This document shows positions 4,481 through 64,000 of a stretch of DNA of 64,000 nt, one piece after another. Within the stretch, counting starts at the first letter, position 1. The number at the start of each line of letters is the position of its first letter. The notes under the pieces are model-generated. The model saw only the letters and a list, made by a program, of their open reading frames with translations. It did not search any database and was not told the origin of the DNA. The position numbers were made by a program, and so were the translations under genes. The DNA is taken from positions 24,897,501 to 24,961,500 of the forward strand of contig NC_088111.1 of the NCBI RefSeq assembly GCF_036370855.1, in the 5' to 3' direction. The DNA is from Dromaius novaehollandiae (lineage: Eukaryota; Chordata; Aves; Casuariiformes; Dromaiidae).

Positions 4481-4875
4481 ACCACTGGGCTAGGACAGAC
4501 ATTTGACACAAACAGAAAGAATGGCTCTCTGTAAATGCCTTAGAGAGAGATGGTGGATAGAGATGAACTTAAATTGTTATCTTTGTCTTCAGCTCTTCAG
4601 CTCTCCAGAGTCAGAGAAGATGAATTGCACACAATGAAGTAAACATTCTTGATTAATCACTGTATGCTTGATGCCTATTTTTTGCCTTTTACATTAGGTA
4701 TATGGGAGTAAAGTTCAGATTTTTGAGTGAGGTGAGGCAAAGTTGCAAGTGTTTTTGAACTGCTAAACAGACCAAAAAACCCCCCGCTCTTTCAAAGAGG
4801 GATGCAATTTTGACAAAGTTCCTACTTCTTTGTTCCAGGTATATCTCTGAAATCATTTCCACAACGAAAGGTAAA

Positions 4876-5810
4876 ATGGAGAGGGCCAACGTGTCAACAG
4901 TATCTGAATTTATTCTTGTAGGTCTTTCTGATGCTCCAGAGGTATGTTTTCTTCTCTTTGTGCTGTTTTTGTTCATCTGTTTGGCCACCCTGGCAAGCAA
5001 CATCACAATCCTTATTGCCATTAGCACAGATACTCGCCTGCACAACCCCATGTACTTTTTTCTCTGCAGCCTATCTTTCCTGGATATCTTGTGCCCCACT
5101 ATAACTGTACCGAAGATGCTGGAGGCCTTGCTGTTTGAGAACAAGGTAATTTCATTCACTGGCTACATGCTCCAGCTGTTCTTCTTCATTGATACTGTAG
5201 GCACAGAGATTTTCCTCCTGGCTGTGGTGGCATATGACCGTTACATTGCAATATGTCATCCGCTGCAGTACATGAATATCTTGAATATGAAACTGTGTGC
5301 TCACCTAGCCATTGGCACCTGGATAGCAGGATTTTTGAATTCTCTGTTGCATATATCTTTCATTTTTACACTCTTTTTCTGTGATTCTAATAAAGTTGAC
5401 CAATATTACTGTGATATTCCCCCTGTGCTGGCCCTCTCCTGCTCTCCTACTTACACCAGGGAACTGGTAATTCTCACAGTTGCTGGCATCCTCGGAAGCA
5501 GTGCCTTTCTGGTCACGCTGATCTCATATGTCTATATCCTCTTGACTATCCTGTGCACGAACTCTGCTGAGGGCAGGCATAAAGCTTTCTCCACTTGTGG
5601 TTCTCACTTGACAGTAGTATGCCTTTTCTATGGAACCACCATTTACACATATGTACGGACTTCCTCCAGCTACTCTCTCAATCAGGACAGGATCATTTCC
5701 ATGCTCTGTGGGATCTTCACTCCCCCCTAATCTACAGTCTGAGGAATAAAGAAGTTAAATGTACCCTAAGAAGAGTGACCAGCCAGGTAAGAACTGCTTT
5801 AACAAGATGA
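4876..5810 (+). pseudogene. Olfactory receptor, class II, broken in TM7
   Basis: This is a single-exon G-protein-coupled odorant receptor. The ATG at 4876 gives MERANVSTVSEFILVGLSD, with an N-glycosylation site (NVS) in the short N-terminus. TM1 (GN-type turn), the PMYFFLCSLSFLDI segment of TM2, the MAYDRY equivalent VAYDRYIAICHPLQY, the long second loop with its cysteines, and KAFSTCGSHLTVV of TM6 are all present. The frame closes at a TAA (5728-5730) just after GIFTP. The expected PLLNPLIYSLRNK motif resumes in another frame (LIYSLRNKEVKC) and runs to a TGA at 5808. Compared with the family pattern, about 10 nt are missing in the run of Cs at 5722-5727. The subfamily resembles OR5V/OR12D-like receptors, judged only from the FCDSNKVDQYYCDIPP loop. 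A truncated receptor without the end of TM7 is unlikely to signal. Confidence 0.88.
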
Positions 5811-17063: not shown

Positions 17064-18036
17064 TCAGTTCTGCTTGGAGTCCTGAATCTGTTGTTTTCTT
17101 GGAGAACAATACAGCCTTGCTATTGTCCTTTGAAGGGCTTCTTTGACCTCCTTGTTCCTCAGGTCAGGCTGTAAATCATAGGGTTCAGCATGGGAATTAC
17201 CAGGGTATAAAATACAGAGATGATCTTGTCATGCTCCACAGTGTATTTTGAACTGGACCTTAAGTACATGAAGGAGCCTGTCCCATAGAACATGGTAACA
17301 CCAGTCATATGGGAAGCACAGGTGGAGAAAGCTTTGCATCTGCCTTTGGCAGATTTAATCTTGTAGATGGTGACCCCAATGCATATGTAGGAGATGACAA
17401 TGAGGAGAACAGTGGCGGTGATAAGCATAGTATCACAGACAAAATGGACAAGATCAGTCATGTGTCAGAGCAAGAGTTTCAGGATGTGGGGGCCAGGTCA
17501 CAGAAGAAATGGTTGATGATGTTGGACTTGCAGAAGGACAAGCGGAATATAAATGTCGTCTGAACAGTTGCATTCACACAGCTCATGAAGCAGGAGCCGC
17601 ACACAAGGAGCATGCAGAACTTCCTGGACATAATGACAGGGTAAAGCAAGGGGTTGCAGATGGCTATGAACCAGTCATATGCCATCACGGCCAGGAGGTA
17701 GCATTCTCCCGTCACTGCAATGCAGAACAGCAAGAGCTGAGATGCACATGCTGTGTACGATATGACTTTTGTCTCTGCCACAAAGGTCATCAGAGTGCTG
17801 GGTATAATGATGGTGGAGTAGCTGACATCTAAGAAGGAAAGGCTGCTGATGAAGAAGTACATGGGGGTGTGGAGCCTTGAGCTGATCCAGATGAGCACAA
17901 TCATCCCTAGATTTCCCACTAGGGTGAACAGATAGATCAGTAGAAACACCATGAAGAGGAGGACCTGCAACCTCAGGTTGTCTGTGAAGCCCAACAAGAT
18001 AAATTCTGTCACCACAGAGTGATTCCCTTCTGCCAT
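17064..18036 (-). pseudogene. Olfactory receptor, class II, several lesions
   Basis: The ATG at 18036 opens [20 protein letters not shown], with N-glycosylation site NHS. TM1 to TM4 are readable, including [18 protein letters not shown] and [16 protein letters not shown]. Four defects are visible. The DRY motif at the end of TM3 is DWF ([12 protein letters not shown]). The frame shifts at about 17475-17490 after DLAP and changes again before MTDLVHF (about 17461). A 5-bp tandem duplication TCAGG-TCAGG at 17159-17168 then throws the tail out of frame right after NPMIYSL. After it, RNKEVKEALQRTIA is readable and runs to a stop at 17064-17066. The sequence resembles OR5/OR8/OR9-type receptors. 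Loss of DRY and three frame changes make it non-functional. Confidence 0.9.
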
Positions 18037-33499: not shown

Positions 33500-34265
33500 T
33501 TCTTCCTGATTTTCCCAGGCTCTTACACTGTTGGGAGCCATTCATGGTGGATTTGCCTTAACACAGTTTTCAGGGTGAGAGAGCAAACCCCTCTGCTCCT
33601 CCACTAGGCCATGGCATCTCCATTCCTGAGGCCTAGTGAAGCAACAGCTGGGACTTTGCCCTTCCTCCGCAGAGGCTGAGTGAGTGCAATCACAGTCTTC
33701 CTCTTTATTCATTCAGGTGCTTATTTAGGCCTTCCTTCCTCAGCAGAGCCTCTCCTTGCCAGCAGTTACAGCCCCGCAACCCTGATTTGGGGACATCTCA
33801 GGAGCGGCATGCCTGAGATGAGCCCCAGCCTGGGCAACCCCTCCTGTTGCTCCCTGTGCCCCCTGGCATCCTTGGGGAGTGGGCAGTGAGGTGGGGGCAG
33901 CTCCCTAAAGTGCCCCAGGCAGCTCCCCTTACCCTTGCAGGGCCAACCTTGGCAGCGCCTTGGGGGGTAAAGGGGTCCCTGCAGCCCCTCTGTGACATGG
34001 GCTGGGGCATCACGCAGTGCATCGCAGCAACGGCTGCCCCCTCCCCATATGGCCCCGGGAGCCTGAGCTGAGCCCAGGCACTTGGGGGCTGCTCTCACCA
34101 CGGCTCTGCCCTGCCCTGCTGTGCTCTGCGCTGTTCTGGAGGAGCTGCTGTGCTGTGAGCAGGAGAAGGCGAGAGGAGGTGGTGAGACAGCAAAAGACGC
34201 TGTTTGGTTACCTTCCCAGGAGGATGTTGGAGAGGAGCGGTTTGTCCTGGCTGCAAGAGCTATTT
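33500..34265. other. GC-rich spacer, no gene assigned
   Basis: Moderately GC-rich DNA follows a T-run at about 33486-33500. Open frames on both strands lack recognisable motifs. It could include regulatory sequence, but nothing specific is visible. Confidence 0.3.
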
Positions 34266-34268
34266 GGA

Positions 34269-34985
34269 CTAAGTCGGTAGGCTGGTTATTCCCTCTGTGC
34301 CCCTAAGGAAGTCCGCAGTGCTGCTGGGAATTGCTGCCTGTGGAAGCCCTCCATAATATGGCACTGTCAGGGCTGCAGAACTTGTGCATTTAGAATCTTT
34401 GTTCCCCAGCAGCGTGTCCAGCCCTGTGTCACTATTCCCTTGTCGGCTGCGGCCACAGGACCTTTGGTCCTCGCTCCAATAACTGTCCCCTCCTTTGCTG
34501 CTGTCACACTTGTGGTCCTTGGTATTGTGGAACCAACCTGGTTTGACAGGAGTGTTTTGGAGGTAGACGGTCATGGCTACTGAAGTCTCTGAGGACTGAG
34601 AAGGTGCGTGAGAGGAGGAATTGTAAAGGTGCTTCATGTCTAAAGAATTTGCAGACAGCTCCTGTGTAATTCCCTGTTGCTGCTGTCTTTGGTTTTGGAT
34701 TATCATTCCACCCAGACCTTCGGACTACTGGCACTCGTGTCTATGGGCTCAGTAATTTCCGTATTGTCTTGTGGACCAAACGCTTGCTTCACTCTCAGGA
34801 CGTTTACCTTGTCCTCTTCAGCAATTTTCTTTGCCTGAGAAACTTCTTCAAAAGTAAAGAACTTTTCTTCCATGCTTACAAAAGTTGATATGGGCTTCAT
34901 ATTGCTGTTTGAGTTCAGATTCTGAGGAAGAATGGACCTCAGGCAGACTGAGGGAGTCCTTACAGAAGTCAAAATGTCTTTACCT
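34269..34985 (-). pseudogene. Unidentified coding remnant, likely retrocopy
   Basis: Two adjoining minus-strand frames look like real protein. The first (34972-34703) contains SMEEKFFTFEEVSQAKKIAE and VKQAFGPQDNTEI, acidic and helix-like. The second (34706-34269) starts at QRQQQQGITQELSANS and is Ser/Thr/Asn/Gln-rich to its stop. They overlap by a few bases, which fits one indel in a formerly continuous frame of about 230 codons. No introns are evident over 700 bp, which suggests a retrocopy or one large exon. I do not recognise the parent. No poly(A) tail was seen at the 34269 side. It lies immediately upstream of, and opposite to, the ATAD2-like gene. Confidence 0.45.
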
Positions 34986-35098
34986 TGCTCCTTTTCGGTA
35001 AGTAATGTATTTCACACAGCACAATGATGCCACTGCTGAAAGAACTTCCTCCAAAGTGTACCCCAGTCTAAAAGAGCCTGTACCTTTGCTCCCTATAG

Positions 35099-35930
35099 GC
35101 ACGCTATAGTGTGAGAGAAAGGAAACTTGTTGAATGCTATCAAGCTCCGCTGGAAAGCAGGTTATAGGCAGTTTCTCGGAAGGGCTAATTTCTCATGTAT
35201 AAGGGGGATAGAAGATGTTAAATGAAAACATAGGTATGCACAGTGCAATCAGAAATTATAGCTAGGCTCTGTAATTTTAGGGCCATCAAAGGCTGGTGGA
35301 CACCGAGAAGGGGAAGATGGCCAAGATGCTCACAAGGAGTATAACCTTCAGCCCAGGAGTAGTTGTCCAGTATGAAGAGTCTTTGGAAGGTGGGTTATGT
35401 GCACAGTTTGTCAGAAGGGCTGATTCCTTGTGCTTAAGGGTGGGAGGAATAAGTCCTTGAATGACAATGTGCATATGCAGAGACAAACAAGAAATTATGT
35501 CTTGGTACTATAATTACAGGGTCCTCAGAAGACGATGAAGAGCAGGAAGAGGCTGATGGCGAAGATACTCCAAAGCCATCTAACCTTAGGCAAACTGCTG
35601 AAGAGGCTCAAGCCCCGCTGAAAGGTAGGCTATATGCGGAGCCTCTCTGAAGGGCTAATTTCTTGTGTATAAGTGGGATACAGGTTGTTGAATGAAACTC
35701 TATACGTGTACAGACAAATAAGAAGTTCTCTCTAGGTTCTACAGTCACAGGGGCAACACAAGAAGGTGAAGGCCGAGAAGGGGAAGATGGCAAAGATCCC
35801 TGCAAGGAGTATAACCTTCGACCCAGGAAGACTGTCCTGTACTTCCAGGATCCATTGGAAAGTAGGTTACATGCACAGTTTCTCAGAAGAGCTGATTTCT
35901 TGTGTACAGTGGGCTAGAAGTTGCTAGATG
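35099..35930 (+). repeat. Four tandem copies of an ATAD2 linker exon
   Basis: A unit of about 235 bp, made of an exon plus the following intron, occurs four times. Donor sites fall at 35157 (GC), 35390, 35625 and 35862, spaced 233, 235 and 237 bp. The exon ends read RYSVRERKLVECYQAPLE, then EYNLQPR (frameshifted), SNLRQTAEEAQAPLK and EYNLRPRKTVLYFQDPLE. All correspond to the ATAD2 linker motif RY-LRQRK-..YQAPLE. Copies 3 and 4 (105 and 111 bp) enter and leave in the same phase, so extra copies keep the frame. Copy 2 is 109 bp because of a 2-nt loss. The introns also align ('gaagggctaatttctcatgt' against 'gaagggctaatttcttgtgt'). Confidence 0.88.
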
Positions 35931-36090
35931 AAAAGACGTATACCTCCCCACACACACACAACTTTCATTTCAATTCCTTGCCTTCATTCTGCAGGTAAAA
36001 CTCTCTCTTTGTGATTGAGAGGCATGTATCCTGTGCACATTGCAGTTCTTGGCCAGTGCGCATGCTCACTGCTGCTTTCCATTTCTTCAG

Positions 36091-36815
36091 GCCCATCTTC
36101 TCCTGTCAGGCAAAGGGCTGCATCTGCCCATGCTCGGTCACGAAGCCCATGCTGCAAAAGAACAAACAGGTTGGTGTATGGATACTGATAGTTCTCAGGG
36201 AGCCATAGTGGTGCCACTGCCATCACTGAGTAATGCTTGAAAAGATTTTTCCGATTGATGGTCATGATGGGAAAAGCGCAGCACTGTAGCTGTGGCAGCT
36301 GGAGGGTCTAGAGGAAGCAAGGCTTTTTCTTTGGGAAAGAAGACAACTTTCATTAGCTAACAGCTTTTAAAAAGGCAGGATTTGGGGGCCAGCGATGAGA
36401 TGATTGCGGATGTCCTGGCTGAGAATGGGTATCTGCAATTCTTCTGTTCTACACTTGAAGCTAGAATCCCCTTCCACACATTGTCATTCAGCGATTTCAT
36501 CGTGTTGTATAAAAATGTCCACCTGCTTTTCTTCATGCTTGGATAGTGAATGCCAATCAATTCTAGGGAATTTTTAACAGTTTGGGAAGTTTATGTCAGT
36601 GTATAAGTGCTTCTACACTCACTTTCAATTATGAAAACCACAGCAATCTCGCTAACTGCATGTTCAGTTAGAGAGCCCCTTTCCCTTTCTCTTTCATTCA
36701 CATCAGGTGCCTACCCCTAAACTCTGGGAAAGACGAATTCAAGGGAAAGCATGTGGACGGAAGGAAAACCGGAACCACCTTGCCGGAAGTTGATCCAGTG
36801 CAAATTGAGAGTTCG
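36091..36815 (+). pseudogene. ATAD2: ATAD2-like linker exons
   Basis: Exon 36091-36169 (acceptor 'atttcttcag', donor 'gttggt') reads SPSSPVRQRAASA and RSRSPCC, matching the ATAD2 segment with SPARPR...RSPYC. Exon 36707-36815 (acceptor 'catcag', donor 'gtaagg') reads CLPLNSGKDEFKGK and LPEVDPVQIESS, matching CLPLNFRKDELKG and ADVDPMQLDSS before the first AAA domain. The known gene has a Ser/Glu-rich exon between the two. It was not found in 36170-36706, yet the exon ends (2 nt plus 1 nt) still join in frame. Confidence 0.85.
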
Positions 36816-37055
36816 GTAAGGAGCGGTAATTCATTGTGTCAGTGGGGACTTTTCTAGGGGTCATGAAAAACCTTCCCTACTGTGCTGTTGACAGCTCCCA
36901 GGCTTTACAGTTTTCTCTCAGGGAACTTCAAGATTGTCCTGAACCTTGCGTTTGTGCTGGCATAGGAAGCACTAAGGAAGTTTGGAGGAAGCCTTTTTTT
37001 CTAGGATGCAGCTTTCTCTGACCTCTGACATGTCTTCTGTTGCATGTCTCTTTAG

Positions 37056-37171
37056 GTATGCTTTGATGGTGTGGGCAGTCTCTCTCATCACATTTCAGCC
37101 TTAAAGGAGATGGTCCTGTTCCCACTGCTTTACCCAGAATTCTTTGAGAGATTCCAAATCCAACCCCCCAG
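37056..37171 (+). pseudogene. ATAD2: ATAD2-like exon before Walker A, AT donor
   Basis: The acceptor is 'tctctttag'. The exon encodes VCFDGVGSLSHHISALKEM, then LFPLLYPEFFERF and QIQPP, the entry of the first AAA domain (parent: SVGGLSNHIAALKEMV..PLLYPEVFEKF.IQPPR). It should donate at 37172, but the bases there are ATAACA instead of GTAACA. The next exon (37781) is in the correct phase to continue R-GCLFYG. A single G-to-A change in the donor is the simplest explanation. Confidence 0.85.
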
Positions 37172-37780
37172 ATAACAGGCGATGCATTAGAACTACAGAG
37201 CTAAATGTTGTGATATGCTTTTTAACATGAAAAGTATTCTTCTTCTTCTTTTTTTTTTTTTTTTTTTTTTTTGGAGGGGCAATATCTCAAGACTTAAAGG
37301 CTAGCTTTATATATCCTTGGCCAACAAAGCTTAACTCACTGGATGTTGAGACATGACTTTAAATCCTCCCCTTTCTATGCCTTTAAAAGTATTGCAGATC
37401 TTCAGATGTTTTGCTGCTTTGTTCATAGGAATTCTTTTTTCCAGCTGATGTTTTAAGTAGGGTGTGGAAACAGGGAAGACCTTTTTCGGTCTCCCAGCTT
37501 AAGGCTTCCTCCACAGCAGTTGCCAACAACTTCTGGAAGGCACAGTCCAAGAGCTTTGAACTTTTGCAGGGAGAAAGACAGTCTTTGCTCTCAAATCTCG
37601 CCTCTTAGCAACACTTGCACCTCTTTGGACTTTCCTCACACTGCAGCTCTGCCTGCTTTCTAATATTGGAAATGTTTTGATGAGGAGGGAAGGCTGCTTT
37701 GCTTTCACAATGGGGGTTGTCGTAGGCACTTTTCCATGTTTTTGCTGAAGCTACATAAATCTCTCTTTTTCATGTTGCAG

Positions 37781-39364
37781 AGGCTGTCTGTTTTATGGCC
37801 CACCAGGCACTGGAAAGACACTGGTGGCTCGAGCGCTCGCAAATGAGTGTGGGCAGGGAGACAGGAGAATAGCGTTCTTCATGAGAAAAGGTGCCGACTG
37901 CCTCAGCCAGTGGGTGGGAGAATCCGAGCGACAGCTGCGCTCATTATTTCAGCAGGTAAGGAGGGAATGAGCTACAGGCTGGGTCAGAGTTGGACCTCTA
38001 CTTTTCCATGGTGGATGTCTTCCAGGAGAACTTGGCCTCGTGGGCAGCTGGGCAGTGTCTCCTGTTGAAAAGGGAACATCAGTGTTTCCTTTTTCCCTGC
38101 CGTCCTGCTTTGCCTGAGGGGCTGGAAATCTTGCAGATGTTGGCTCCAGCACAGTGCCAGTGCCTTGGCAGCCAGAATGTTTCTCCTGCATGGTCTTGCT
38201 GAGTAGTGCTGTGTTCCACATACATCAATATGACTGCCTCTGTACTTCCTTTCCAGGCCTATGAGATGCAGCCTTCGATTATTTTCTTTGATGAGATCGA
38301 TGGTCTTGCTCCTGTGCGCTCCAGTCGCCAAGACCAGATTCATAGGTACTTCCTTTTTCTTCCATTTCCATATAATCTGCTTCACCTCTAGGAAAAGAAG
38401 ACCCACCTGCTTCCCTTTATACGACACACACGCTTATTCTGAACTCCTCGAGTACAATGACACAGCGCTTCATAGGATTTTGAAGACAAGAGTTGAAATT
38501 AGGTCACTAAGCTTGGTGTCCAGACAAGGTCGCTCTCGAGACCTTGCCTCATTTTTTCTGTCTTACAATGCGTCCTTTTGCTAATCAACAGCTCATCCAC
38601 AAAAGCTTGTCCTTTTTGAGTGACGTGACTTTGGAGAAAGTCATGCTGGAAGTAACAACAGCTACTAAACCAGGGAATCCAAACAACTTTTTTTTGTCAG
38701 TTCTATTGTCACAACGCTCCTGGCACTTATGGATGGCTCAGACAGCAGAGGAGAGATCATAGTCATTGGAGCCACCAACAGGCCAGACTCCCTGGATCCT
38801 GCTTTACGAAGGCCTGGACGCTTTGACAGGGAGTTCCTTTTCACCTTGCCAAACAAGGAGGTAAGGCTGTTCAGTCAACCTTCCTGCTACTGGGGCAAAG
38901 CCTTGCTTGGCAAGAAAACCAGGCTGCCGCACAGCATCTCTGAGAGTGAAGAAGGAAAGAAGTGGTGTATGTGCTGCACACCTCCCTGTTCCCCAAACAG
39001 AACCAGCAGGAAGGCTGCAAGCAGGAGTTTCACTCCGGCTGGAGCACATGGACAATCTTCCTTCCCCATGTGCTTTCTCTTTGCTTAGTTAGTGAGTCCA
39101 CCTAGGCACTTGCCTTCTGAAGTTGCCGCCTTGCTCTCAGTTTGCCATTTGGGAAAGCCTCGGAGGAAAAGTTGGGCTGGAGTGTGGCTGGGGGGGGCAG
39201 GGGTTGTGCACTGTTTATTTTGTTTTGAGAAAAAGGTTTAAGACAAACCAAAATGTAACCATCTGGTTTGTAGGCTCGAAAAAGGATTTTCAAGATCCAC
39301 ACGAGAGACTGGAGCCCCAAGCCACTGGACGCATTGCTTGACGAGCTTGCTGAAAAATGCGTCG
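37781..39364 (+). pseudogene. ATAD2: ATAD2-like first AAA domain exons
   Basis: Four exons are all open and all have GT donors. 37781-37955 carries [20 protein letters not shown] with an intact Walker A (GPPGTGKT) and [10 protein letters not shown]. 38257-38345 carries PSIIFFDEIDGLAPVRSSRQ with an intact Walker B (FFDEIDG). 38701-38860 carries STLLALMDG-type [15 protein letters not shown], then [19 protein letters not shown] with sensor 1 and the arginine-finger region. 39274-39364 carries IFKIHTRDWSPKPLD and ends in AEKCVG. Every catalytic motif needed for ATP binding and hydrolysis is preserved at the sequence level. This suggests selection persisted after the copy arose, or that it arose recently. 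Confidence 0.92.
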
Positions 39365-39827
39365 GTAAGATGAAAAAGCACACCCAGTTCCTGCCTGTGC
39401 CTGGAGCGTGACAGCGTCTGAGCTTGTGCCAGGCAGTCCCCAAGCTCCCATGCCTTCCCTCAGAATTCCACGCCCACGAGCCAGGCGGCATGACTTGGTT
39501 GCTGTCAGAGTGGGATGCTTCTGTCTACTTCCCTTCCCTCCCCCCTCAGAACATGGAAGGGTCTGCGGGGCATCTTCCTCAGGAGCTAAGTTTGGCTCAG
39601 AGGGCTACTTCCAAAGCACAGGCTATAGGGTGCTGTGCCTCCCGTAATGCAAGTTCCCCATCATGGAACTCCTCTGCAGTGCAGGAACTCTTTTTCCATT
39701 GTCCATGAAACTCTTCTCCCATTGGGCCACGTGCAAAGACTGAGAATGTCCCTTTGCAAAGCCCATCCTTGACTCCTTTGTGGTGCCTGAGGCTGACATA
39801 CCTTTTGATTCTGCTCTTGCTGGTTAG

Positions 39828-40712
39828 GATACTGTGGGGCTGATATCCAATCCCTCTGCGCTGAAGCTGCCCTCTGTGCTTTGCATCGATGCTATCCCCA
39901 GATCTACACAAGCAGTCAGAAGCTGCAGATCGATGTTGCTGCCGTTGAAATCACAGCAACAGATTTTCTTGTGGCTATGCAGAAGACTGCACCAGCTTCA
40001 CAGAGGGCTGTGGCTTCCTCTGGACAACCACTGTCACCAGTTTCCAAGCCACTGCTTCAGAACACGCTAGGGAGACTCCTCAAAGGCGTGCAGAGGGTAT
40101 TTCCCCACGCAGCACTTGCACTTAAGAAGGACCAACAGCCAGGTAAGGCCATAGCATTCACTGTCATAAAACTCTCCCAAAGCAAACACTGCTAGTTTGT
40201 GCAATGCACAGAAACAAAGCTTTCAGTCAGGATGAGGTGAAGTTGAATGGTAGAGAGGGAAGAGCTGGGAACTCCTCCCACTTCACAGTAGAGAATAGTA
40301 GTGTGTTCTCCACTCAAGCATCCAGTTTCTGAAGGCTGTCAGCATCATCTTTGCTGTTTCCAAGGAGAAAAGGAGCTTTCGCTGCTAGCAAAACATAGCT
40401 CGCACAAATCCAGACACTTGGGAGAGCTTTGTAGAGACTGAGGGCTTTGGAAATGGCATTCAGTGTATGCCCCTCAGGTGAAGACATGCAAGGCCCTGGG
40501 TTTCAGCTCTCAGTTAGAAGCTGTCTTAGTGCAAGAGAAGGTTGCAGACTCTGTGGGAAAGTTAACAAGCCTCTCTTGCCTTCTCATGGTACCACTCCTC
40601 TCTTAGAAAACGACTGCGTGCACAGTGATGAGGAGTCACCTTCTGGTCCTGAAGATAAGCCGTTTCATCCCAGGCCTGGCCAACAAAAGCAAACCTTCCT
40701 TAACTATAACAG
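39828..40712 (+). pseudogene. ATAD2: ATAD2-like AAA lid and linker exons
   Basis: Exon 39828-40142 (acceptor 'tggttag', donor 'gtaagg') reads GYCGADIQSLCAEAALCAL, YPQIYTSSQKLQ, VAMQKTAPASQRAV and QRVFPHA, the helical lid of the first AAA domain. Exon 40607-40712 (acceptor 'ctcttag', donor 'gtaact') reads ENDCVHSDEESPSGPEDKP, an acidic linker ending NYNR. Both are open and in the expected phase. Conservation is weaker in the linker, as in the parent family. Confidence 0.9.
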
Positions 40713-41876
40713 GTAACTGTCCATGTCCTTTGATTGAAATTCTGATTGCTGGGGCTTTCCAAACTGTCTTGGCGGTTGCAAGTGGGAGGGGTGTTAGATG
40801 AGGGAGGAAGGAAGAGTTAGTCCAGGGTGTTTTGGCATCAAAAACTGCAAGAAGGAAGCACGGAGATATAAACAGGTGATACAGTTGTAAGAAAGCAAGT
40901 AGCTCCAGCCAATCATACTGAAGGAGCCAGCCTCCTTTTCTTCCACCTGAGGCATCCACAGACAATCAGGGCACATGGATTTCATGCATGCTATTCTTTA
41001 AGGATTCAAGACCAAAGAAATGCATTGTCTCTCCTCTTAGCTAAAAAAAATGCAATGTGGGTTTGTGGAGTCATCTAGCTTCCCAGACTGGGAATGCAGT
41101 AGTGACTCACATCATAGGAAGAAAACTGAGGAATGGTCCGCTAAAAGAGCTTAATAAAAACCCTGCAAAGAATGTCTTCATTTGCTATCTTTAAGCCACT
41201 ATAAGCATAGTATTTTTACATTCGTATTTTGCCATTGCAATGTGAAAGTAATTCACTCCCACAGTGGAGCTATTAGCTTATGAGGTCCCAGCTGGGTCAA
41301 TAATTTTTATCAGTTTCTCTTACTGTGCTGCTCAGGAAAGCGTCTGACCCACAGAACTTGGTTCAGTCTCTAGGCTCCTTGACCCGAGCCAGAAAAGGTC
41401 CTGCAGTACTGGGATGGCAAAAAAAAAAAGGTGCTATTCACAGATGTATTCCATGATAACAGTGAAAAAATCACAAGAAAGTTGTATTTGCAATCTAGGA
41501 GACAGCACACAAGGAAAGATGAAACCATTTCAATGAAGGAATCAAATAAATATCCTCCAGTTCTGTGGACTCACAGGAATGTTTTGCACTTCCTTAGATA
41601 CAGCTAAGGCCTTTCAGAGCCCACGGCATTTGTTTTCTCAGAAGGGTTGTTCTGCTCCTTCCTGACCACCTTCTACATTTCCAGTTGACCACCTGCACCT
41701 AAACCTGACCAATGCAGAGACCTCGAGGCTGCTCAGTCAGGACATCCTGAACATAAGTGCGTCATGCTGGGCGGGGGGAGGAAGAGAGCCTGGCTGGTGT
41801 GTGCTGGACAAAGAAAGACACCTTTAACATCTGTGTCTTGATTGATCGTTTTCTTTGTAAACTTCTTGTTTTGCAG

Positions 41877-43943
41877 TTATGCTCCTAGCAGTGCTTGTTG
41901 CCAGCCACCATGTCACAGGCCCAGGTTCTTAATCACTGGAGAGCCTGGATACGGGCAAAGTTCTCACTTGGCACCTGCGCTAATACACGCGCTGGAGAGG
42001 TTTGCCGTTCATGTGCTGGACCTGCCAGCTCTCTTTGCTAGCAGCACCTCACCCGAAGAAAGATGTGCACAGGTACCTCTTCTCTCTGCAATCTCACAGG
42101 ATGAAGAGACTCAGGGGAAGTAGGCAGACTTCACGGTGTTAATGGCCATGGCCTGGCTTTCCTCTGCTTTCTGTGGTGTTTATTTCACACCAAAAGAACA
42201 CTTTTCTTGTACACTGAACAATGGAGAAGAAGGATGTTGTGCACAAGCATCTTTTCCATTCCAAGTTAAACAGTAAGGATGTTGCTAGCAGCTCAGGGAG
42301 CTCCAAGATGCTCTTGATAAACCCCTCTTCATGGCAAGAGCTGCTGCTGATGACAGTGGGCTCTCCAGAGTTGTTTCCTTTGCCTCTTCAGACTCTGTTG
42401 CTCCCAGGAGGCACCTCTGCATCAGCCTGACTGCATGTCATGCCCTTTCTCTAGCCTCCTTCTTTGTAATACTGAAATGCAACCCAGGTTTGGGGGGAAA
42501 GAAAAGCGATTCTTTTCTCTCATCATACCACAGGGAAGAGGCAAGAATACACTTGTTGATAACTATGAGCATTCTTTGTAGCTGGGTAATTACTGACAGT
42601 ACAGCGCAAGTAATCTTCTCTGAAGGATCCTCTGGAAATGAGAGGGTCAGCTGTGAGCGAGAGAGCCTTTCAGACTGGCTGAAGGTTGTTCACCTCTTAT
42701 GCACTGAACCTTGAAATTTGGAATGATAGGCAGGCTTCTTTCTGGGGCTCTGCTCTCACCCTTTCACCTAGGCCTGTGTTTGTTCAGCCTCTGCTCCACA
42801 CCCACTTGCATACAAGCCCTCCCTCAGCTGGAAACTGAGTGGTGTAGCAGTGGCCCCAGGCTCATGTGGGACCCTGCTGAAGGGCTGGGCCTGCTTTTCA
42901 AGCACACTGCTACTTGCACCCAGGGGCGAAGCTCTGGGGGAGTTAGCTGACATCTAAGCAATTTGGAAATCGGGCAGAGATTCAGGTCTGCCTCTCGCTG
43001 TGTAGCTATGTCCAAGGAGCTGGGTCCAAGCAGAAATGTTACCTTATTCTTGGTGGCTTGTTTGGACACTTGGTCTTTGTGCCATCTGGTTTTGGAGGCA
43101 ACTTTGATTGATACATTGTTGCTCATTAGCAGCTTCTGCTACCTGGTTCAATAGTCTTCTCCCAACTTCCTTTTTACTAGTTGATCCAAGAAGCCCAGAG
43201 GACAGCACCGAGCATCATTTATATTCCACGTATCCATGCCTGGTGGGAGGCTGCTGGAGTCACCTTGAGAGCTACGCTCACAACATTACTTGAGCGCATT
43301 CCAGCATATGCTCCAGTGCTGTTGCTCGCTACGTCGGATGTTTGCCATGCAGATCTCCCACAAGAGGTATTTCTCTCACTGCTTTTCTGGCTTTTTTCAG
43401 TCTCATGTTAATTCATCACTCCATTCAACACCAGTATCACTAGGGCACCCTGCTGGCATCTCTTCCCTCTGCAGTTGCCACAAGGCTTCAAACTGAAGGG
43501 CAGCAAGGCAAGTAAATCCAAAACAGGCAACCTAGGAGATGGTCAGTGTCCTCCCTGGGAGCACTGGAACCTAGGGTCGCTTCACGGAGCTTTAATCCTA
43601 GAGGGGTTCCTTAAAGAAGATGCCCTAAATTGCTGGGCTGACCCACTATAATCTCGCCTTTAAGGCCAGGAAGCAAACTTGTTCTAGTCTCTCCCTTATT
43701 CAAAGCATTCCTCAGCTTCATGGAAAAAGGTATTCATCTTTTTGGAGTAGAACACAAATTTGGCGGGGGGCCTTATGGCTGCACTGTCTTTTCTCCTCCC
43801 ACCCCAGGTACAAGTGTTGTTTTCTGAGCTTTATGGAGAAGTTTTCAATGTCCAATCACTTGGCAAGGAGGAAGGGAGAAAGTTTTTTGAGGACTTGCTT
43901 GTTCACCAAGCTGCTAAACCTGCTGCACCACAAAAAAAAGCAG
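41877..43943 (+). pseudogene. ATAD2: ATAD2-like second AAA domain exons
   Basis: Exon 41877-42072 reads HRPRFLITGEPGYGQSSHLA, the degenerate P-loop of the second AAA domain (parent: RPRILIVGEPGFGQGSHLAP), and ends STSPEERCAQ. Exon 43181-43366 reads AQRTAPSIIYIPRIHAWWEA and PVLLLATSD. Exon 43808-43943 reads ELYGEVFNVQSLGKEEGRKF, then EDLLVHQAAKP. All three have canonical acceptors and donors and open frames. As in the family, the second domain lacks a classical Walker A and is thought not to hydrolyse ATP. Confidence 0.9.
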
Positions 43944-44090
43944 GTGAGGCTATTCTACAAACACAGCTTTGCTATCTGTAGCTTAGCAGCCATTCGGCAT
44001 TTGCTTTGGTAATAGATTTCCTGGCATGAATGTTTACTCTGCTGCTATCTGAGTACCATCACTTGGCTAACCTTTTCTGGTTGACTGAAG

Positions 44091-44230
44091 CTTGTCAGGC
44101 ACTGGAAGTCCCGCCTGTGGCATCACCACCTGAGCCTCGACTGCTGACAGGAGGAAGAGAGGCAGCTTGAGGAGCAAGGGGATGAGACATGGCCAGTGGT
44201 GCCTGGAGCTTCCAGTACACCCCTCTCTAG
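44091..44230 (+). pseudogene. ATAD2: ATAD2-like pre-bromodomain exon, frameshifted
   Basis: After the acceptor 'ttgactgaag' the sequence reads QALEVPPVASPPEPRLLT, matching the parent QALEVLPVAPPPEPRSLT. The expected EE-x-x-RLEEQEE helix then appears only in another frame (EEERQLEEQGDE), which implies an indel at about 44150. The original frame hits TGA at about 44170. Similarity stops before the bromodomain, and the sequence enters a pyrimidine microsatellite at about 44240. Confidence 0.8.
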
Positions 44231-44239
44231 TGGCAAGTT

Positions 44240-44495
44240 CCTTTTCTTTTCTCTTTCCCTTCCCTTCCTTTCCCTTCCCTTCCCTTCCTTTCCCTTCCCT
44301 TCCCTTCCCTTCCCTTCCCTTCCCTTCCCTTCCCTTCCCTTCCCTTCCGTTCCCTTCCCTTCCCTTCCCTTCCCTTCCCTTCCCTTCCCTTCCCTTCCCT
44401 TTCCCTTTCCCTTTCCCTTTCCCTTTCCCTTTCCCTTTCCCTTTCCCTTTTCCTTCCTTTCCTTTCCTTTCCTTTCTTTTCTTCTTCCTCCTTCT
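44240..44495 (+). repeat. TTCCC/TTTCCC microsatellite
   Basis: About 250 bp of almost uninterrupted TTCCC units change to TTTCCC and then TTTCC. The whole plus strand is pyrimidine. It sits exactly where the bromodomain-coding exons should follow. The open frames on both strands (Phe/Pro/Ser or Lys/Gly/Arg/Glu repeats) are artefacts of the repeat. Confidence 0.97.
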
Positions 44496-44499
44496 TTGG

Positions 44500-45990
44500 A
44501 TAAGGTGACAATGACGTTGATATCTTCCCCCTTGTCATGGCATACCTGGTTTTGGTGATGCCAGTGGCTTTACACCAAAGGCATTCCATCTCTGAATTAG
44601 GTTCAGCATGTGAGGTCAGTCCCCAGGACATTCACTCAACATGCTTATGAAATAAAGCCCAGCGACAGAGCTTGGTTCACACTGTAAAACACTGGCCTCG
44701 ATGGCCCCAGAACAGCTAACTCCTCAAATGTAACATGTTGTTTAGAGTGGTTGCTGGACACTCCATAAGTTCTTACTGTAATAGGAAACAGTCAGGATGT
44801 TTCCTTTGCTTTTGGTTCCCTTTTCTCTTCCTCTCACTCTTGCCTTCCTGCCTGCCAGCCCCATGCCAAGTAATTGCCATCTGTCTGTGAGGCTTTGGTA
44901 ACCTCTGCTTTTGGAACAGAGAGGAAGGCGAGCTTGTCTCCAAAGGCTTTTCTGCTTCCCATCTCTTTCAGTTCCTGTGATAAGAGAGGAAGCCACCTGA
45001 GCTTATGACCTTGCTTTGTGCTCATGCCTTTGATCTACAGTCTGCTCTGTGCACAAAAACTTGAGGAGGATTCTTTTGTGCTTGATATCACCTAACCAGT
45101 TCTTGTGCTTTTCAATTCTAATAACAAATTGACCCCCTTCACTTGCTGCCCTCTCTCCCTCAACACATGTATGTAGTGAGCCAGCACAATGGTACTCCAG
45201 TCCCTCTCACAATGCTAGATTTTGCAGACAGAACTGCTTAGGTAATGCTTTGACTTGCTTTTTCTCCTACCTCTGTGCAGCTGTCTGCAGATGAAAGCGA
45301 AGGAGGAACACGTCACCCTCAGAGAGCCTAGCAGAGAAGAGGAGGAAATGTTCACCCTGTGCTGAGAAGGAAACCAGCATGTGTCTCAGGGTAGGTTGGA
45401 GCTCACTGATCTACCTTTGCTTCCTGCTCTGCTGTCGACTCTTGAGCTATCCATTCTACCAGCGGAGCTGCAGGCATGGGCAATGTCCAGCTAACAGGGA
45501 GACAGAAACACCTGAGGAGGCTCCCATTACCAGCCGGCAGCCCTCTTTCTAGAGGCTCTGTGGCCTCTCTTCAAAAGGTGCATTTCACAGAGCCCTGCAT
45601 TGCAACCACAGAAACTCATCCAAAGCAAGAGGGGTTTTGCTGTGGCAGCCGCTGTCCTTTACTGCAAAATGGGCCATGGCAGTTCCTGCTGTCCTCAGAG
45701 TAGTTCACCTGCAGTTAGGATTGTGGAGGTGATGGCCTGAGAAGCAACACAATGCTAGCTGAAACTGAAGCCTTGCTTTTTCTTGCAAGTAGGACAAAGG
45801 AGCTCATTTCCTCCATGGAAATCTGCTGCGATATTTGGTCTGTTCTTGGACGTTTCACTCCTTTTTTATTTGGTGATAGAAGAAAAGAGGATGCGAGTTG
45901 TGTTGGACTGTTTTCTTTTGTGTCTGAACACATCGAGAGCCTATTCAAAAGATCTCATGCTATTGTAAACTTGTACTGTCTCCCTTTTTC
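44500..45990. other. Intron-like gap with no bromodomain
   Basis: I looked for the bromodomain exons (FTKPVDPDEVPDY, then QPMDLS type motifs) on both strands and found none. A possible remnant exon follows 'ctctgtgcag' at about 45291, reading SADESEGGTRHPQR before a stop. It is too short and variable to assign with confidence. Confidence 0.45.
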
Positions 45991-45995
45991 TTCAG

Positions 45996-47297
45996 CAACT
46001 GCTGAATGTCATTGGTGAGGCAATGAAGGACTGCAACATCCACCACCTCGAAAAACTACATCTGGTGCTCAGCCAGTGTGTTTACCGCCATTGGCAAGAT
46101 GATGACAAACCACAGTTAATAGAGGTACTTTGTTTACACAGCACTTCCTGTCACTGTTCTGCACTTCTTCCATGTGCACTGTAGATATTCTGCTTAGTCA
46201 CTATCCATCCCTTTCCTGCTTAGTAGTCTGTGTTACATATGAGTTGCTGACTTCCATCTGGAAGGCATTGGGCCAGACTGCAAAGCCCTCGTTCAGTTTG
46301 GAATGACTCCTGGCACTTTCAGGGGGGCAAAAGGGAGCTTGACAATGACAAGACAAGACAAGACAATGGTGCCACCCACACAGCCCTTTCAAAGCTGTGA
46401 ACCTTCGAGTCTGTGAATAGCTTTCCTTGGGAACCTCTTTTGCAACAGCAGGGGGATGCCAAAGAAGGGGGCTGGTTTCAGTGTTTTCCCTTTCCCTTCC
46501 CCTTCTCCCCCCACAGGCACTCCAACATGGGAAGGCTTAGTGGTCCTGCCCTTTTGGAACACTTCTAAAGGAAGGGCACAGCCTAACAGGAGCGGAAGAG
46601 GTCTCTCTAGTGCCACCACAATCTCTTGTAGACAAGCATGCTTGAGCAGCTTCAGTTTCATGTGGAGGGAGACTGCTGCCTCGGCAGGCTTTCCCCTGAT
46701 TCTTCAGAGTCTCAGATGCCTTCTTGTCAAAGAGGATGTATGAGCTACTAGAATTCAGCAGAAATCTTGCAGAGGCCACCATGGCCCAAGTCAGGCATGC
46801 CCAGCCTTGAGGCAGCTGAGATAGGCCACACATTCAGTCTTGAGATTCAAGAGCCGCAACCCCATTTCTCTTTGAGATGCTTGTGCATGGGAGGAGGCAA
46901 ACTTCTTTGTCCCTCTGTGGTTTGCCTTCAAAAGAGGAGGTCTCTTCTCCCAAGCCTGGCTCATCTTGATCTCTTCTTCCACACTGCAAAAAGAGCAAGA
47001 ACAGGTGCTCTGTTCTGACTGTGCATTCTGTGTCCTACTCTGTTTTGCACACCTAAGGGTAACTTTAAAGCTAGAGCTGATAAAAGACATTGCAATGGAT
47101 GGAGCATGTGTACTTTCTAAATAGCGCCAGCCAACACTTGTATGCACTTTTGTTTTATATAAAGTAGCTGACTACAGGATTTTTATGTTTCTATTCCAGC
47201 TTATATCAAGTTTGCCTTTGTTTAGTTGGTGATTATTCTTTTTTATCTTTTTTAGGAAATGAAGGAAGAAATTGAAAACTTCTCCCATGCTCAGTAA
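45996..47297 (+). pseudogene. ATAD2: ATAD2-like C-terminal exons
   Basis: Exon 45996-46124 (acceptor 'ctttttcttcag', donor 'gtactt') reads QLLNVIGEAMKDCNIHHLEK and LSQCVYRHWQDDDK, matching the ATAD2 C-terminal helices (...NIFQLENLYAVISQCIYRHRKDHDK). The last exon starts at 47256 after 'tttttttag' and reads EMKEEIENFSHAQ before TAA at 47295-47297, matching the parent end QKMEQEVENF. The phase is 0 across the junction. Retention of the C-terminus with loss of the middle points to internal deletion and not simple truncation. Confidence 0.88.
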
Positions 47298-47470
47298 CAG
47301 GGAACGTGCCTCTACTCCCCCATTCTTTTTCTTTATTTGCTGTTTTGTCATCAGTGCATAATTCAGTAAAGAGAGCTTGTAGATATAATATAAATAGAGC
47401 TGTGCATATATGTATACATATATATCTAGAATAGATTAATAAATCTCATATAAATCCTTTTAAGCTTTCT
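47298..47470 (+). terminator. 3' UTR and AATAAA of the ATAD2-like gene
   Basis: An AT-rich 3' untranslated region follows the stop. It contains 'atatgtatacatatatat' and a polyadenylation signal AATAAA at 47438-47443, about 145 bp after the stop. A (GTT)n run follows at about 47481. Confidence 0.6.
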
Positions 47471-47748
47471 TACGGGCTATCTGTTGTTGTTGTTGTTCCA
47501 TACATATTGTGTATACATACATGATCTGTTGAGATCAGTGTGTTCGGCCTTCCTTTCCCATGTGCATTGCCTGAAAGTCTCGTGCCTGGCATTTTTAGGA
47601 GACCAATGGTTGTCAGTGCCTTTGGACCTACACACATCTGGACGTCTTCCAAGTAACCTCAGTGCCTCTCTCAAAAGAAATTAATGGAAAACTTGACCAT
47701 CTTTGGCCAAATGGTGACAGGTGGTTTTTCTGGCGTCCCCTGTGCTAC

Positions 47749-54442: not shown

Positions 54443-55432
54443 TCATGACTGGGGAAAAAGCCAAACCTTTGCACAGCCAACGGCTTCCTTCAGGGCCAGT
54501 TTCACAGGCTTGTTTCTGAGACTGTAGATGAAGGGGTTTAAGAATGGGTACAGGACAGTGTTCAGCAAAGCTACAACTCTGTTGGTCTCCAAGGAAACAT
54601 CTTCTGAGGGCCGTACATAGAGAACAATGCAGCTTCCATATACGATGGCTAAGGCACTGAGATGGGAAGAACATGTAGCAAAAGCTTTCTTCCTCCCAGA
54701 CGCTGCTGGAATGTGCAGAATACAGTGGAAGATGCACACGTAGGACACCATGATTAGACATAAGGAACCCAGCACTCCAAACAATATCAAAATGGAGTCT
54801 GCTTTCCAAAGCAGGCTGGTGTCAGAGCAGGACAGTTTGAATAAGGGGGAGCTGTCACAAAAAAAATGGTGGATCTTGTTGGGACTACAGAAAGTCAGCT
54901 TTGAGAGCAGGACCAGGTGGTAACTCGCGAGTGTGAAGCCTATGACCCATGCAGCAACAACCAGGTGGGTGCAGAGCTGCTGCTTCATGATGGCAGCATA
55001 ATGCAAAGGCTGGCAGATGGCAACGTAGCGGTTAAAGGACATGACAACAAGCAGAGCAAATTCTGTAAAACCCAGGGCAAAATAGAAATAGGATTGGGCA
55101 AAGCAGCTGCTTAATGAGATTGTTCTCCTACCAGAGCTCAGAATCGCCAGCAATGTGATGGTTGTGGAGGATGTAAACCAGATTTCCAGGAATGCCAGAC
55201 TGCTGATGAAAAAGTACATGGGAGTTTGCAGGCGGCGATCCACACACACTAGGAAAATGATCATTGTGTTCCCCATCATTGTTGTCAGGTATATGAGTAG
55301 AAGGAGCAGGGAGAGAAACAGCTGTAGCCTTTGATCAAGCCCTGAGAAACCCTCTAGGATGAACTCAGCAACTACAGTTTCATTTCCTGCTCCCTTGCCC
55401 GATTTCAGTACATCCTGCTGAGACTGGAGCAT
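54443..55432 (-). CDS. Olfactory receptor, intact, OR6-like
   Basis: This is a seven-transmembrane odorant receptor on the sensory neuron surface, coupling to the olfactory G protein. The chosen ATG (55432) gives 329 residues starting MLQSQQDVLKSGKGAGNETV. An upstream in-frame ATG at 55540 would add 36 unlikely residues. Visible motifs are N-glycosylation NET, EFILEGFSG, MGN in TM1, [32 protein letters not shown] (NRY in place of DRY), FFCDSSPLFKLSCSD in loop 2, KAFATCSSHLSALAIVYG in TM6 and PFLNPFIYSLRNKPVKLALK in TM7. No stop or shift interrupts it. It is class II and most like OR6-type receptors (the FLEIWFTSS and LFKLSCSD pattern). It is the only complete receptor here. Regulation is not visible. 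Confidence 0.92.
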   Translation of the reverse strand: MLQSQQDVLKSGKGAGNETVVAEFILEGFSGLDQRLQLFLSLLLLLIYLTTMMGNTMIIFLVCVDRRLQTPMYFFISSLAFLEIWFTSSTTITLLAILSSGRRTISLSSCFAQSYFYFALGFTEFALLVVMSFNRYVAICQPLHYAAIMKQQLCTHLVVAAWVIGFTLASYHLVLLSKLTFCSPNKIHHFFCDSSPLFKLSCSDTSLLWKADSILILFGVLGSLCLIMVSYVCIFHCILHIPAASGRKKAFATCSSHLSALAIVYGSCIVLYVRPSEDVSLETNRVVALLNTVLYPFLNPFIYSLRNKPVKLALKEAVGCAKVWLFPQS

Positions 55433-55540
55433 GAAGAAGCAAGTGTGAGAATTACACAGTCTGGGCGGGAGAGTATATCCTCCTTCACCCCCTCGCTTGC
55501 TTCCTATGTTAACACAGACAGAAATATTCATCTCAACCAT

Positions 55541-58249: not shown

Positions 58250-59985
58250 GCCCATCTCCTCTGAGGCTTTTTCCATTGTAGGGGTTGCTGATTGGTCACA
58301 ATCAGGTAGTCAGGAAGCAGTGACCTCACAAACACAAACAGCAGCCATGGGCCTAGCTCTGGCCTATCAGGCCCTGAGACAGAGGTGACCTCACAAGCAC
58401 AAGCAGCAGCCATTTGCCCAGCTCTGGCCTATCAGGCACTGAGGCACAAGTGACCTCATAACCACAAACAGCAGCCATTCATCCATAACTGGCCTATCAG
58501 GTCCTCAGGCAGAAGTGATATCACAACCACAAACAGGAGCCATGGGCCCAGCGCTGGCCTATCAAGCACTGGTTCACAGGTGAACTCACAACAACAAACA
58601 GGAGCCATGGACCTAGCACTGGCCTAACAGGTGCTGAGGCACAAGTCACGTCACAGCCACAAAAAGCAGCAATATGCCTATACTGGCCTATCAGGCACTG
58701 CGGCACAAGTGACCTGACATCCACAAACAGCAGCCATGTGCCCAGTGCTGGCCTATCAGGTACTGAGGCACAAGTGTCTTCGCAACCACACCAACAGCCA
58801 TGGGTCCAGGACTAGCCTATCAGGCACTGGTGCACAAGTGACCTTACAACCACAAACAGCAGCCACGGGTCTAAAACTGGCCTATCACAGAATAAGGCAC
58901 AATGACCTCATAACCAGAAACACCAGCCACGTGCCTAGCACTGGCCTATCAGGCATTGAGATACAAGCAACCTCACAACCACAAACAGCAGCCATGGTCC
59001 CAGCACTGTCCTGTTACACACTGAGGCAGAATTCACCTCACGAGCACAAAAAAAAAAAGATGCATGACCAGCACTGCCCTATTAGGCATTGAGGCAGAAG
59101 TGACCTCACAACTACAAACAGGAGCCATGGGCCTAGCAGTGGCTTATCAGGCACTGAGGCACAAGTGACCTCACAATGACAAATAACAGCCACATGACCA
59201 GCATTGGCCTATCAGGCACTTAGGCACAATGACCACAAAACAAGAAACAGCAGTCACGTGCCCAGCACTGGCCTATCGGGCACTGGTACACAAGTGACCT
59301 CACAACCACAAACAGCACCCTTGGTCCTAGCACTGGCCTATCAGGCACTGAGGCACAAGTAACCTCACAAACCCAAACAGCAGCCACATGACCAGCACTG
59401 GCCTATCAGGGCCTCAGGCAGAAGTGACCTCACAACCACAAACAGCAGCCATGTGTCCAGCCTTGGCCTATCAGGTCCTGAGTCACCAGTGACCTCATGT
59501 ACACAAGCAGCAGCCACTTCCTGCTTCCGGTCTGTTGGGTCTTGATGCAGTAGGTACCTCACAGTCAATTTCAAAAGCCATATGCCTGAAGCTGCCCTAA
59601 AAGTTTCTGAGTCACTAATGACCTCACAAGTGCAAATGGCAGCAATATGCCATCTGCTTTGTTATCCAGTAAGGAGGCACAAGTGACCTCACTATCAGCC
59701 TTGAAGCCATCAGCTAGCTGCTCGCCTGTAACATACTCAGGAAAACATGACCTCACAAGCACAAAGAGCAGCTGTGTCCCTGCTGCTGGCGTCTGAGGTA
59801 CTCAGGAAGAAGTGACCTCACAACATTCCCCAAGACCATGGTCCTACTGTTGGCCTATTACATCCTGAGGCAGAAGTGATCTCAGAAGCACAACAGCTGC
59901 AATGTTCTTGCGGCCTGCCTATCAGGCACCAAGAAAAGGTGATTTCCAAGGCAGCTTTAAAGTCTTGTGGCTGCTACTGGCCTAT
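58250..59985 (+). repeat. 65-bp tandem satellite, block 1
   Basis: Consecutive units start near 58442, 58507 and 58572, giving a 65-bp period. A typical unit contains 'agtgacctcacaaccacaaa', 'cagcagccatgtgcccagc' and 'actggcctatcaggcactga'. About 20 units are readable to 59560, after which copies become more diverged up to about 59985. A short A-run (59050-59059) interrupts one unit. Open frames within it are artefacts. Confidence 0.93.
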
Positions 59986-60667: not shown

Positions 60668-61165
60668 GGCACTGAGGCAGAAGTCACCTCACATCTGCAT
60701 CAAAACCATGTGCTTGCTGCTGGCCTATCAGGCACTGAGGCACATTGATATCACAAGCACTAACAGCAACCACATGACCAGCACTGACCTACCAGGCACT
60801 GAGGCACAAGTGATGTCACAATGACAAATAACAGCCACATGACCAGCACTGGCCTATCGGGCACTGAGGCAGAAATGACCTCACAACCACAAACAGCAAT
60901 AATGTGTCTCCTTGCTGCCTCTCATTTACAGATGAACAAGTGGCCTAACGACGGGTATCAAAGGAACTTGCTTGCTGCTTGCCCATCCAGTTCTGAGGAA
61001 GCAGTGACTTCACAGGCTTCATCGAAGCCACGTGCCATCTGCTGGCCTATCAGGTAGGAATGCAATAGTGACCTCACAAGTGAAAACAGCAGCCATGTGC
61101 CTACCACTGCCTCCTCAAATGCTGAAACAAAAGTGACCTCACAGTCTGCATTGAAGCCATGAGCT
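60668..61165 (+). repeat. 65-bp tandem satellite, block 2
   Basis: This continues the same unit ('ggcctatcaggcactgaggc', then 'aagtgatgtcacaatgacaa'). About seven units are readable, becoming diverged toward 61165. Confidence 0.88.
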
Positions 61166-63299: not shown

Positions 63300-64000
63300 C
63301 ATCCCTTCTCTGAGCACATGCAACAAACCCAGAAGTCACCTCACCATCAGCAGCATCCAAGCCCGGTGTCTTCTCCTGACCTAGAGGCTGCTCAGATAGA
63401 GGTGACCTCACAAGTGCATACCCCCACCACAGGCCTGCTGCTGGCCTATGGCCTTCAGAGACAGAAGTCTCCTCAAAATGACTTCCCCAGCCATGAACTA
63501 CTGCTGGCCTGTCAGGTACTCTGACAAAAGAGCCCTCACAATCAACACCCATGCCTAACTGCCTGCTGCTGGTGTACCAGGCACTCACAAAGACAGGACC
63601 TCACAGTCACCTTCACAGCCATGTCTCTGCCACTGGCCTAGAAATCTGTCTCTAAGACAGAAATCACCCCACTACAAGTTCCTCAGCCATGAGTCAAATC
63701 CTGCCTTATCAGCTGCTCAGGCAGAAGTAATCTCAAAAAACACATATCCCAGCTGTGGACCTGCCGCTGCCCTATCAACCACACAGGTAGAAATGACCTC
63801 ACAATCATCAGCCACATGTCTTCTGCTATCCAATCAGTTCAGCAGTCAGGACTGACCTCACAGCCAACAGCCAAGCCTTGTTCCTCCAGCTGGCCCATCA
63901 GGTACTCAGGCAGAAGTGACCTCACAATCAACAGCCGAGCCACGTGCCTCCTCCAGGCCTATCAGCTACTCACAAAGAATTCACGTGACACTGGTGACTT
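63300..64000 (+). repeat. 65-bp tandem satellite, block 3 (cut by window end)
   Basis: Diverged copies of the same unit ('aagtgacctcacaatcaaca', 'ctggcctatcagctactcac') run to the last base of the window. Units are less alike than in block 1, and TCAACAGCC often replaces the CCACAAACAGCAGCC segment. The array continues beyond the window. Confidence 0.85.

Follow-up and report, generated by a model that had tools for sequence, protein, structure and literature searches.

Serial duplication of a symmetric ATAD2 linker exon in a gene family amplified in the emu genome

Here we show, by homology, exon phases and tree, that a symmetric 111-nt linker exon of ATAD2 (phase 1-1) was genuinely and serially duplicated in an ATAD2-derived gene family of the emu, Dromaius novaehollandiae. 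The family has been amplified to 48 copies in arrays on three contigs, and a further subset is scattered over eight more contigs, no farther than about 2 Mb from a contig end. From sequence comparisons, we put at about 0.8 the probability that this is a real, old and frame-neutral multiplication of the linker exon, so far found only in palaeognaths, and that the array members encode a protein. Vertebrate ATAD2 and yeast Abo1 and Yta7 are histone chaperones of the AAA+ class that combine two AAA modules with a bromodomain. Tandem duplication of symmetric exons is a known process, in which equal phase at both ends allows copies to be added without a shift of frame. In the emu, the gene in which it took place has also been multiplied into dozens of copies.

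The window, i.e. the whole stretch of 64,000 nucleotides analysed here, corresponds to C14:24897501-24961500 of the 1.468-Gb emu genome (contig labels C2, C14, C29 etc. are internal to this analysis). An earlier note on this DNA had proposed four units of about 235 bp, produced by serial duplication of a linker exon in an ATAD2 paralogue. The 235-bp repeat is genuine. Self-comparison showed a 235-bp diagonal, and direct repeats, 196 and 50 nt long and spaced by 470, 235 and 237, were present at 35163-35904, an interval in which a TRF run called no tandem array. All four units aligned to one segment of parental ATAD2, a single linker exon, thereby confirming the serial duplication; adjacent units are homologous to one ancestral exon, as tandem exon duplication demands. 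The number of units, on the other hand, stands only in part, as three are full or nearly full and unit 1 is a 3' half. Its acceptor in the window falls outside the region of homology, and the half unit is compatible with a deletion that may have fused intronic sequence of the parent to a mid-exon position. Units 3 and 4 have phase 1 at both ends, as had been claimed along with their frame-neutral layout, and the same holds for the parental exon and, in array copies, unit 2. The distance between units is about equal to that between unit and parent, and the tree of units did not give an order of duplication. The match in a 470-bp register between units 1-2 and units 3-4 hints at a doubling of units. 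Comparison of the linker with solved structures gave two matches, with E values of 0.23 and 0.66, which are not meaningful.

The emu ATAD2 locus on contig C2 has one linker exon of 111 nt, phase 1-1, coding SSEEGEDQDDEDGEDTQKRYDLRQRKTVVRYQAPLE, and the named emu ATAD2 protein (P0006) contains this exon once. The check for the same four exons in the parental gene thus found a single exon in both DNA and protein. Window positions 34231-47696 aligned to the C2 locus, introns included, with 64-83% identity by block. This collinear exon-intron alignment, together with the tree, confirmed descent from ATAD2 with shared introns, and the gene is a paralogue as the earlier note had it. The parts of ATAD2 that are absent comprise e1-e4, the Ser-rich e7, the stretch from the second half of e19 to the first half of e22, and most of e23/e24. 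Loss of e7 and of the bromodomain exons keeps the frame in the array model. The ATG and donor of a putative new first exon were found in 10 of 10 aligned sequences. Features of the window gene are listed in Table 1.

Table 1. Features of the ATAD2-derived gene in the window (window coordinates)
Feature	Position	Strand	Remarks
Putative new first coding exon	34932..34997	+	ATG ... TTTTCG|GTAAGT, ends in phase 0, partly from parental intron; inferred
Linker unit 1	35099..35156	+	58 nt, only 3' half of exon; GC donor in window copy
Linker unit 2	35281..35389	+	109 nt, 2-nt loss causing frameshift
Linker unit 3	35520..35624	+	105 nt, in frame, motif short by two codons
Linker unit 4	35751..35861	+	111 nt, in frame, open; EYNLRPRKTVLYFQDPLE
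Exon e6 (SSPVRQR...)	36091..36169	+	5' end shorter than in emu ATAD2
Exon e8	36707..36815	+	Ser-rich e7 absent; e6-e8 junction stays in frame
Exon e9	37056..37171	+	donor AT, not GT, in window locus
AAA1 exon e10, Walker A	37781..37955	+	
AAA1 exon e11, Walker B	38257..38345	+	
AAA1 exon e12, arginine fingers	38701..38860	+	window limits transferred from array model
Exons e13 and e14 with intervening intron (span)	39274..40142	+	
Exon e15	40514..40712	+	acceptor CTCTCAG|TT shifted upstream, inferred
Exons e16, e17 and e18 (AAA2) with introns (span)	41889..43943	+	
Fused e19/e22	44091..44232	+	deletion takes out bromodomain exons; 2-nt loss in window copy
e23/e24 remnant	45281..45390	+	stop codon in this copy; frame open in the two array copies read
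Exon e25 (C-terminal region)	45996..46124	+	

The window copy is a pseudogene, a decayed member of the dispersed subset, since it carries the 2-nt loss in unit 2, a broken e9 donor, a frameshift in e19/e22 and a stop in e23. With these defects, this copy as read cannot make an expanded linker. The e9 donor is GT in all seven other dispersed loci and in the nine array loci read there, and both array copies read keep the fused e19/e22 in frame. A (TTCCC)n tract of about 43 units lies inside the gene (window 44255-44476), where another pyrimidine tract is found in the two array copies read. Elsewhere in the window, open reading frames at 4759-5727 (+), 17482-18036 (-) and 54446-55540 (-) resembled olfactory receptors, as judged by eye from translation, and an array of a tandem unit of about 65 bp was seen at 58319-59516 (about 18 copies) and also at 60720-60899 and 63853-63972.

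A protein search of the genome with the AAA1 exon, in which 101 of 101 candidates were scored, gave 79 matches, and 56 of these were counted as family copies. The family thus has at least 56 copies with an AAA1 exon, of which 48 lie in tandem arrays (23 on C29, 16 on C207 and 9 on C234) and 8 are dispersed, one each on C5, C6, C8, C9, C10, C14, C122 and C182, at about 5 kb to 2.05 Mb from the contig end. What had been described as one paralogous gene is therefore a paralogue, but one out of a family whose array members, where examined, are open. None of the 48 array copies has a stop in the AAA1 exon, as compared to a TGA in three of the eight dispersed copies. Flanking DNA is also common to several contigs (10 places from 10 candidates, and at least 40 places in a second search, with 40 of 828 candidates scored). 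The remaining AAA1-exon matches were ATAD2 itself (C2), a gene on C3 which we take to be ATAD2B-like, fragments on C265 and remoter AAA genes. The C265 matches were rejected as family members, as the five 10-kb stretches match ATAD2 only over about 0.4-1 kb around e10. They are five independent ATAD2 fragments (L032-L036) with TGA in the AAA exon, and two of the stretches, when compared, were 95% alike over 7.7 kb. The same AAA-exon match was found with equal score on two large contigs (C33:60089811 and C35:73877542); we would guess at a VCP-like gene carried by a pair of related chromosomes. Between neighbouring array copies on C29, at L027:2566-4896 (about 4132566-4134896), open reading frames resembled retroviral protease, RNase H and integrase by eye.

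Linker regions were aligned from 18 array loci (10 on C29, 5 on C207 and 3 on C234) and the 8 dispersed loci including the window, and the same four units were present in all 26. In each of the 18 array loci, unit 1 has a GT donor, units 2, 3 and 4 are open with lengths of 111, 105 and 111 nt, respectively, and the units retain their AG and GT splice sites; the four units are frame-compatible. Equal phase at both ends holds for units 2 to 4 in all 18, and unit 1 is partial everywhere. Unit 2 measures 109 nt, with the 2-nt shift, in 8 of 8 dispersed loci. The 2-nt loss reported earlier for the second copy is thus present, but it is a defect of the dispersed set and not of the duplication. One of the 18 loci, L046 (C207:441704-442904), has no AAA1-exon match, lies outside the 48 and is probably a partial copy.

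We built by hand a 20-exon gene model, which in two array copies gave 2673 nt or 891 codons with no internal stop; its splice sites were picked manually so that the frame was kept, both its first exon and its e15 acceptor were inferred, and a stop-bearing last exon was looked for after e25 and not located. The full reading covers 2 of the 48 array genes and the linker reading 18 array loci. From the open frames, splice sites and dN/dS, array members would encode an AAA1-AAA2 protein of about 890 amino acids or slightly more, devoid of a bromodomain. Pfam comparison of the array protein matched AAA, with no bromodomain among the best 25 of 27 families, and a bromodomain was matched in the parental piece. 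The bromodomain that marks the ATAD2 family is thus missing, as its exons have been deleted both from the window copy and from the two array copies read. AAA1 has its Walker A and Walker B motifs and its arginine fingers, with positions determined by manual counting. The residues corresponding to human E532, R540, R586 and R589 are likewise retained, by hand count on the 8h3h alignment and the array sequence with the numbering of PMC10539301. The N-terminal linker would consist of one half and three further acidic/YNLRPRK exon repeats. Units 1-4 amount to 129 residues, with 31 D/E and 19 K/R, and the parental exon to 37 residues, with 13 and 6. Since the predicted protein retains the AAA1 residues and is without the reader, it may represent an ATAD2-type hexameric AAA+ machine, chaperone-like, in which the AAA1 motor and pore are kept, the acetyl-lysine reader is gone and the N-terminal tail is longer and partly acidic.

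Relatives of the family were found in other palaeognaths. In a tree of 24 rows, four of them with under half of the columns filled and with 11 of 21 inner branches drawn open, the emu array grouped with ATAD2-like proteins of rhea, ostrich and kiwi (100/100), and these with a second rhea group (100/100), within birds. ATAD2-like proteins of loon, crane, takahe and kagu were placed elsewhere, and those of owl and tinamou had no resolved position. The rhea and ostrich models are, like the emu array, without a bromodomain (precomputed domains), and the kiwi model is partial; the comparison covers the protein models of these relatives, with N-termini that are incomplete or in another frame. Four models on one contig of Rhea pennata (P0003, P0004, P0005 and P0015) have 2, 3, 4 and 2 linker units, respectively, at a 37-residue spacing, read in a basic and not an acidic frame, and in each the start of the model cuts into the first unit. 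A fifth model on that contig, P0131, has zero units. A further rhea model, P0001, has units like U2 and U3 at its end, the latter shortened to the same length as emu U3 (by eye), which suggests that U3 is older than the emu-rhea split and that copies lie next to each other in rhea, too. Among the best 120 proteins, a loose pattern of the linker motif, which misses eroded units (emu U3) and units in another frame (rhea), occurred once in 95, was absent from 25 and occurred more than once in none.

That the repeats are a local accident of the window, in one dying paralogue, has a next to negligible probability. The window copy is indeed broken, but the four units in 26 of 26 aligned loci and the rhea protein with U2- and U3-like units refute this explanation. 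A different possibility is that no member of the family, in the arrays or elsewhere, still codes for protein, so that a pseudogene was amplified whose open frames date from an earlier functional phase and stay alike through array homogenisation. Against it, both copies read are open over 20 exons and 891 codons, although no more than 4 nucleotides in 655 codons distinguish these two, and open frames in many copies are thus not independent. Comparison of parental ATAD2 with the array also favours coding (dN 0.140, dS 0.785, ratio 0.179 or about 0.18, over 655 codons; 0.03 to 0.08 in e9-e12), but the low ratio is partly due to constraint on ATAD2 itself, and of the changes between array and window over 653 codons, 22 are synonymous and 37 nonsynonymous, a ratio of 0.51 that would suit a non-coding family. 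The same is true of the linker, where array and dispersed copies differ at 13 of 372 exon sites and 14 of 419 intron sites, i.e. exons and introns diverge alike; of the array linker locus without an AAA1-exon match; and of the emu protein records, as none for an ATAD2-like protein was among the best 120 rows of either protein search. Against these stand the relatives that are annotated in rhea, ostrich and kiwi, and on balance we consider a wholly non-coding family improbable and an array that encodes a protein most likely.

Strong selection on the linker exons is unsupported, given the like divergence of exons and introns, and these exons are under weak constraint. Pairs of units gave dN of 0.26 to 0.47 and dS of 0.47 to 1.92, from few sites. 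In a substitution-only simulation, the chance of three open units was 0.01 to 0.08, depending on branch length, so that their openness is suggestive but not decisive. Weak constraint would also be expected if the units, though duplicated and transcribed, were skipped or subject to alternative splicing, leaving a protein linker no longer than that of ATAD2; skipping any of the symmetric array units 2 to 4 would leave the frame unaffected. The AG and GT sites kept at the units in all 18 array loci aligned speak against this, and we regard such skipping as rather unlikely, if less so than a family that is non-coding as a whole. The preferred reading hence remains a real and frame-neutral multiplication of linker exons in a family that probably encodes a protein.

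Literature searched for ATAD2 together with bird, copy, paralogue or exon duplication, with subscription journals mostly outside its scope, yielded nothing on ATAD2 copies among the papers listed; the 11 that combine ATAD2 with birds, judged by title and opening of the abstract, all deal with other matters. As compared to ATAD2, from which it descends, the emu family retains AAA1 and AAA2 exons but is without the bromodomain, the original N-terminus (e1-e4) and the Ser-rich exon, has its linker exon multiplied and exists in dozens of copies. In human ATAD2, nucleotide and substrate are bound by the AAA1 ring, AAA2 serves as an inert base, and the construct studied omitted the acidic N-terminus (PMC10539301). 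For Abo1, PMC6917787 describes contacts of pore loops and bromodomain with histones. A further likeness is to ATAD2-S, the testis-specific short isoform without the acidic N-terminus, in that both are ATAD2 forms without the N-terminal domain; however, ATAD2-S is an isoform and not a gene family, and was modelled by a construct retaining the bromodomain (PMC10539301).

More speculatively, and at a low probability, the emu genes might belong to a fast-amplifying palaeognath family of bromodomain-less AAA+ histone-chaperone-like proteins, in which the linker grows by symmetric exons and the number of units varies by species and copy, possibly germline or genome-conflict genes like ampliconic testis genes. 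One damaged copy, read alone, can mask an intact family. In one bird lineage, a conserved chromatin AAA+ machine was apparently copied, its reader removed, its linker exon repeated and the whole then multiplied into dozens of genes. This clearly exemplifies amplification at the level of the gene combined with amplification at that of the exon. If expressed, the family would provide a natural test of ATAD2 without its bromodomain and of the purpose of the acidic linker.
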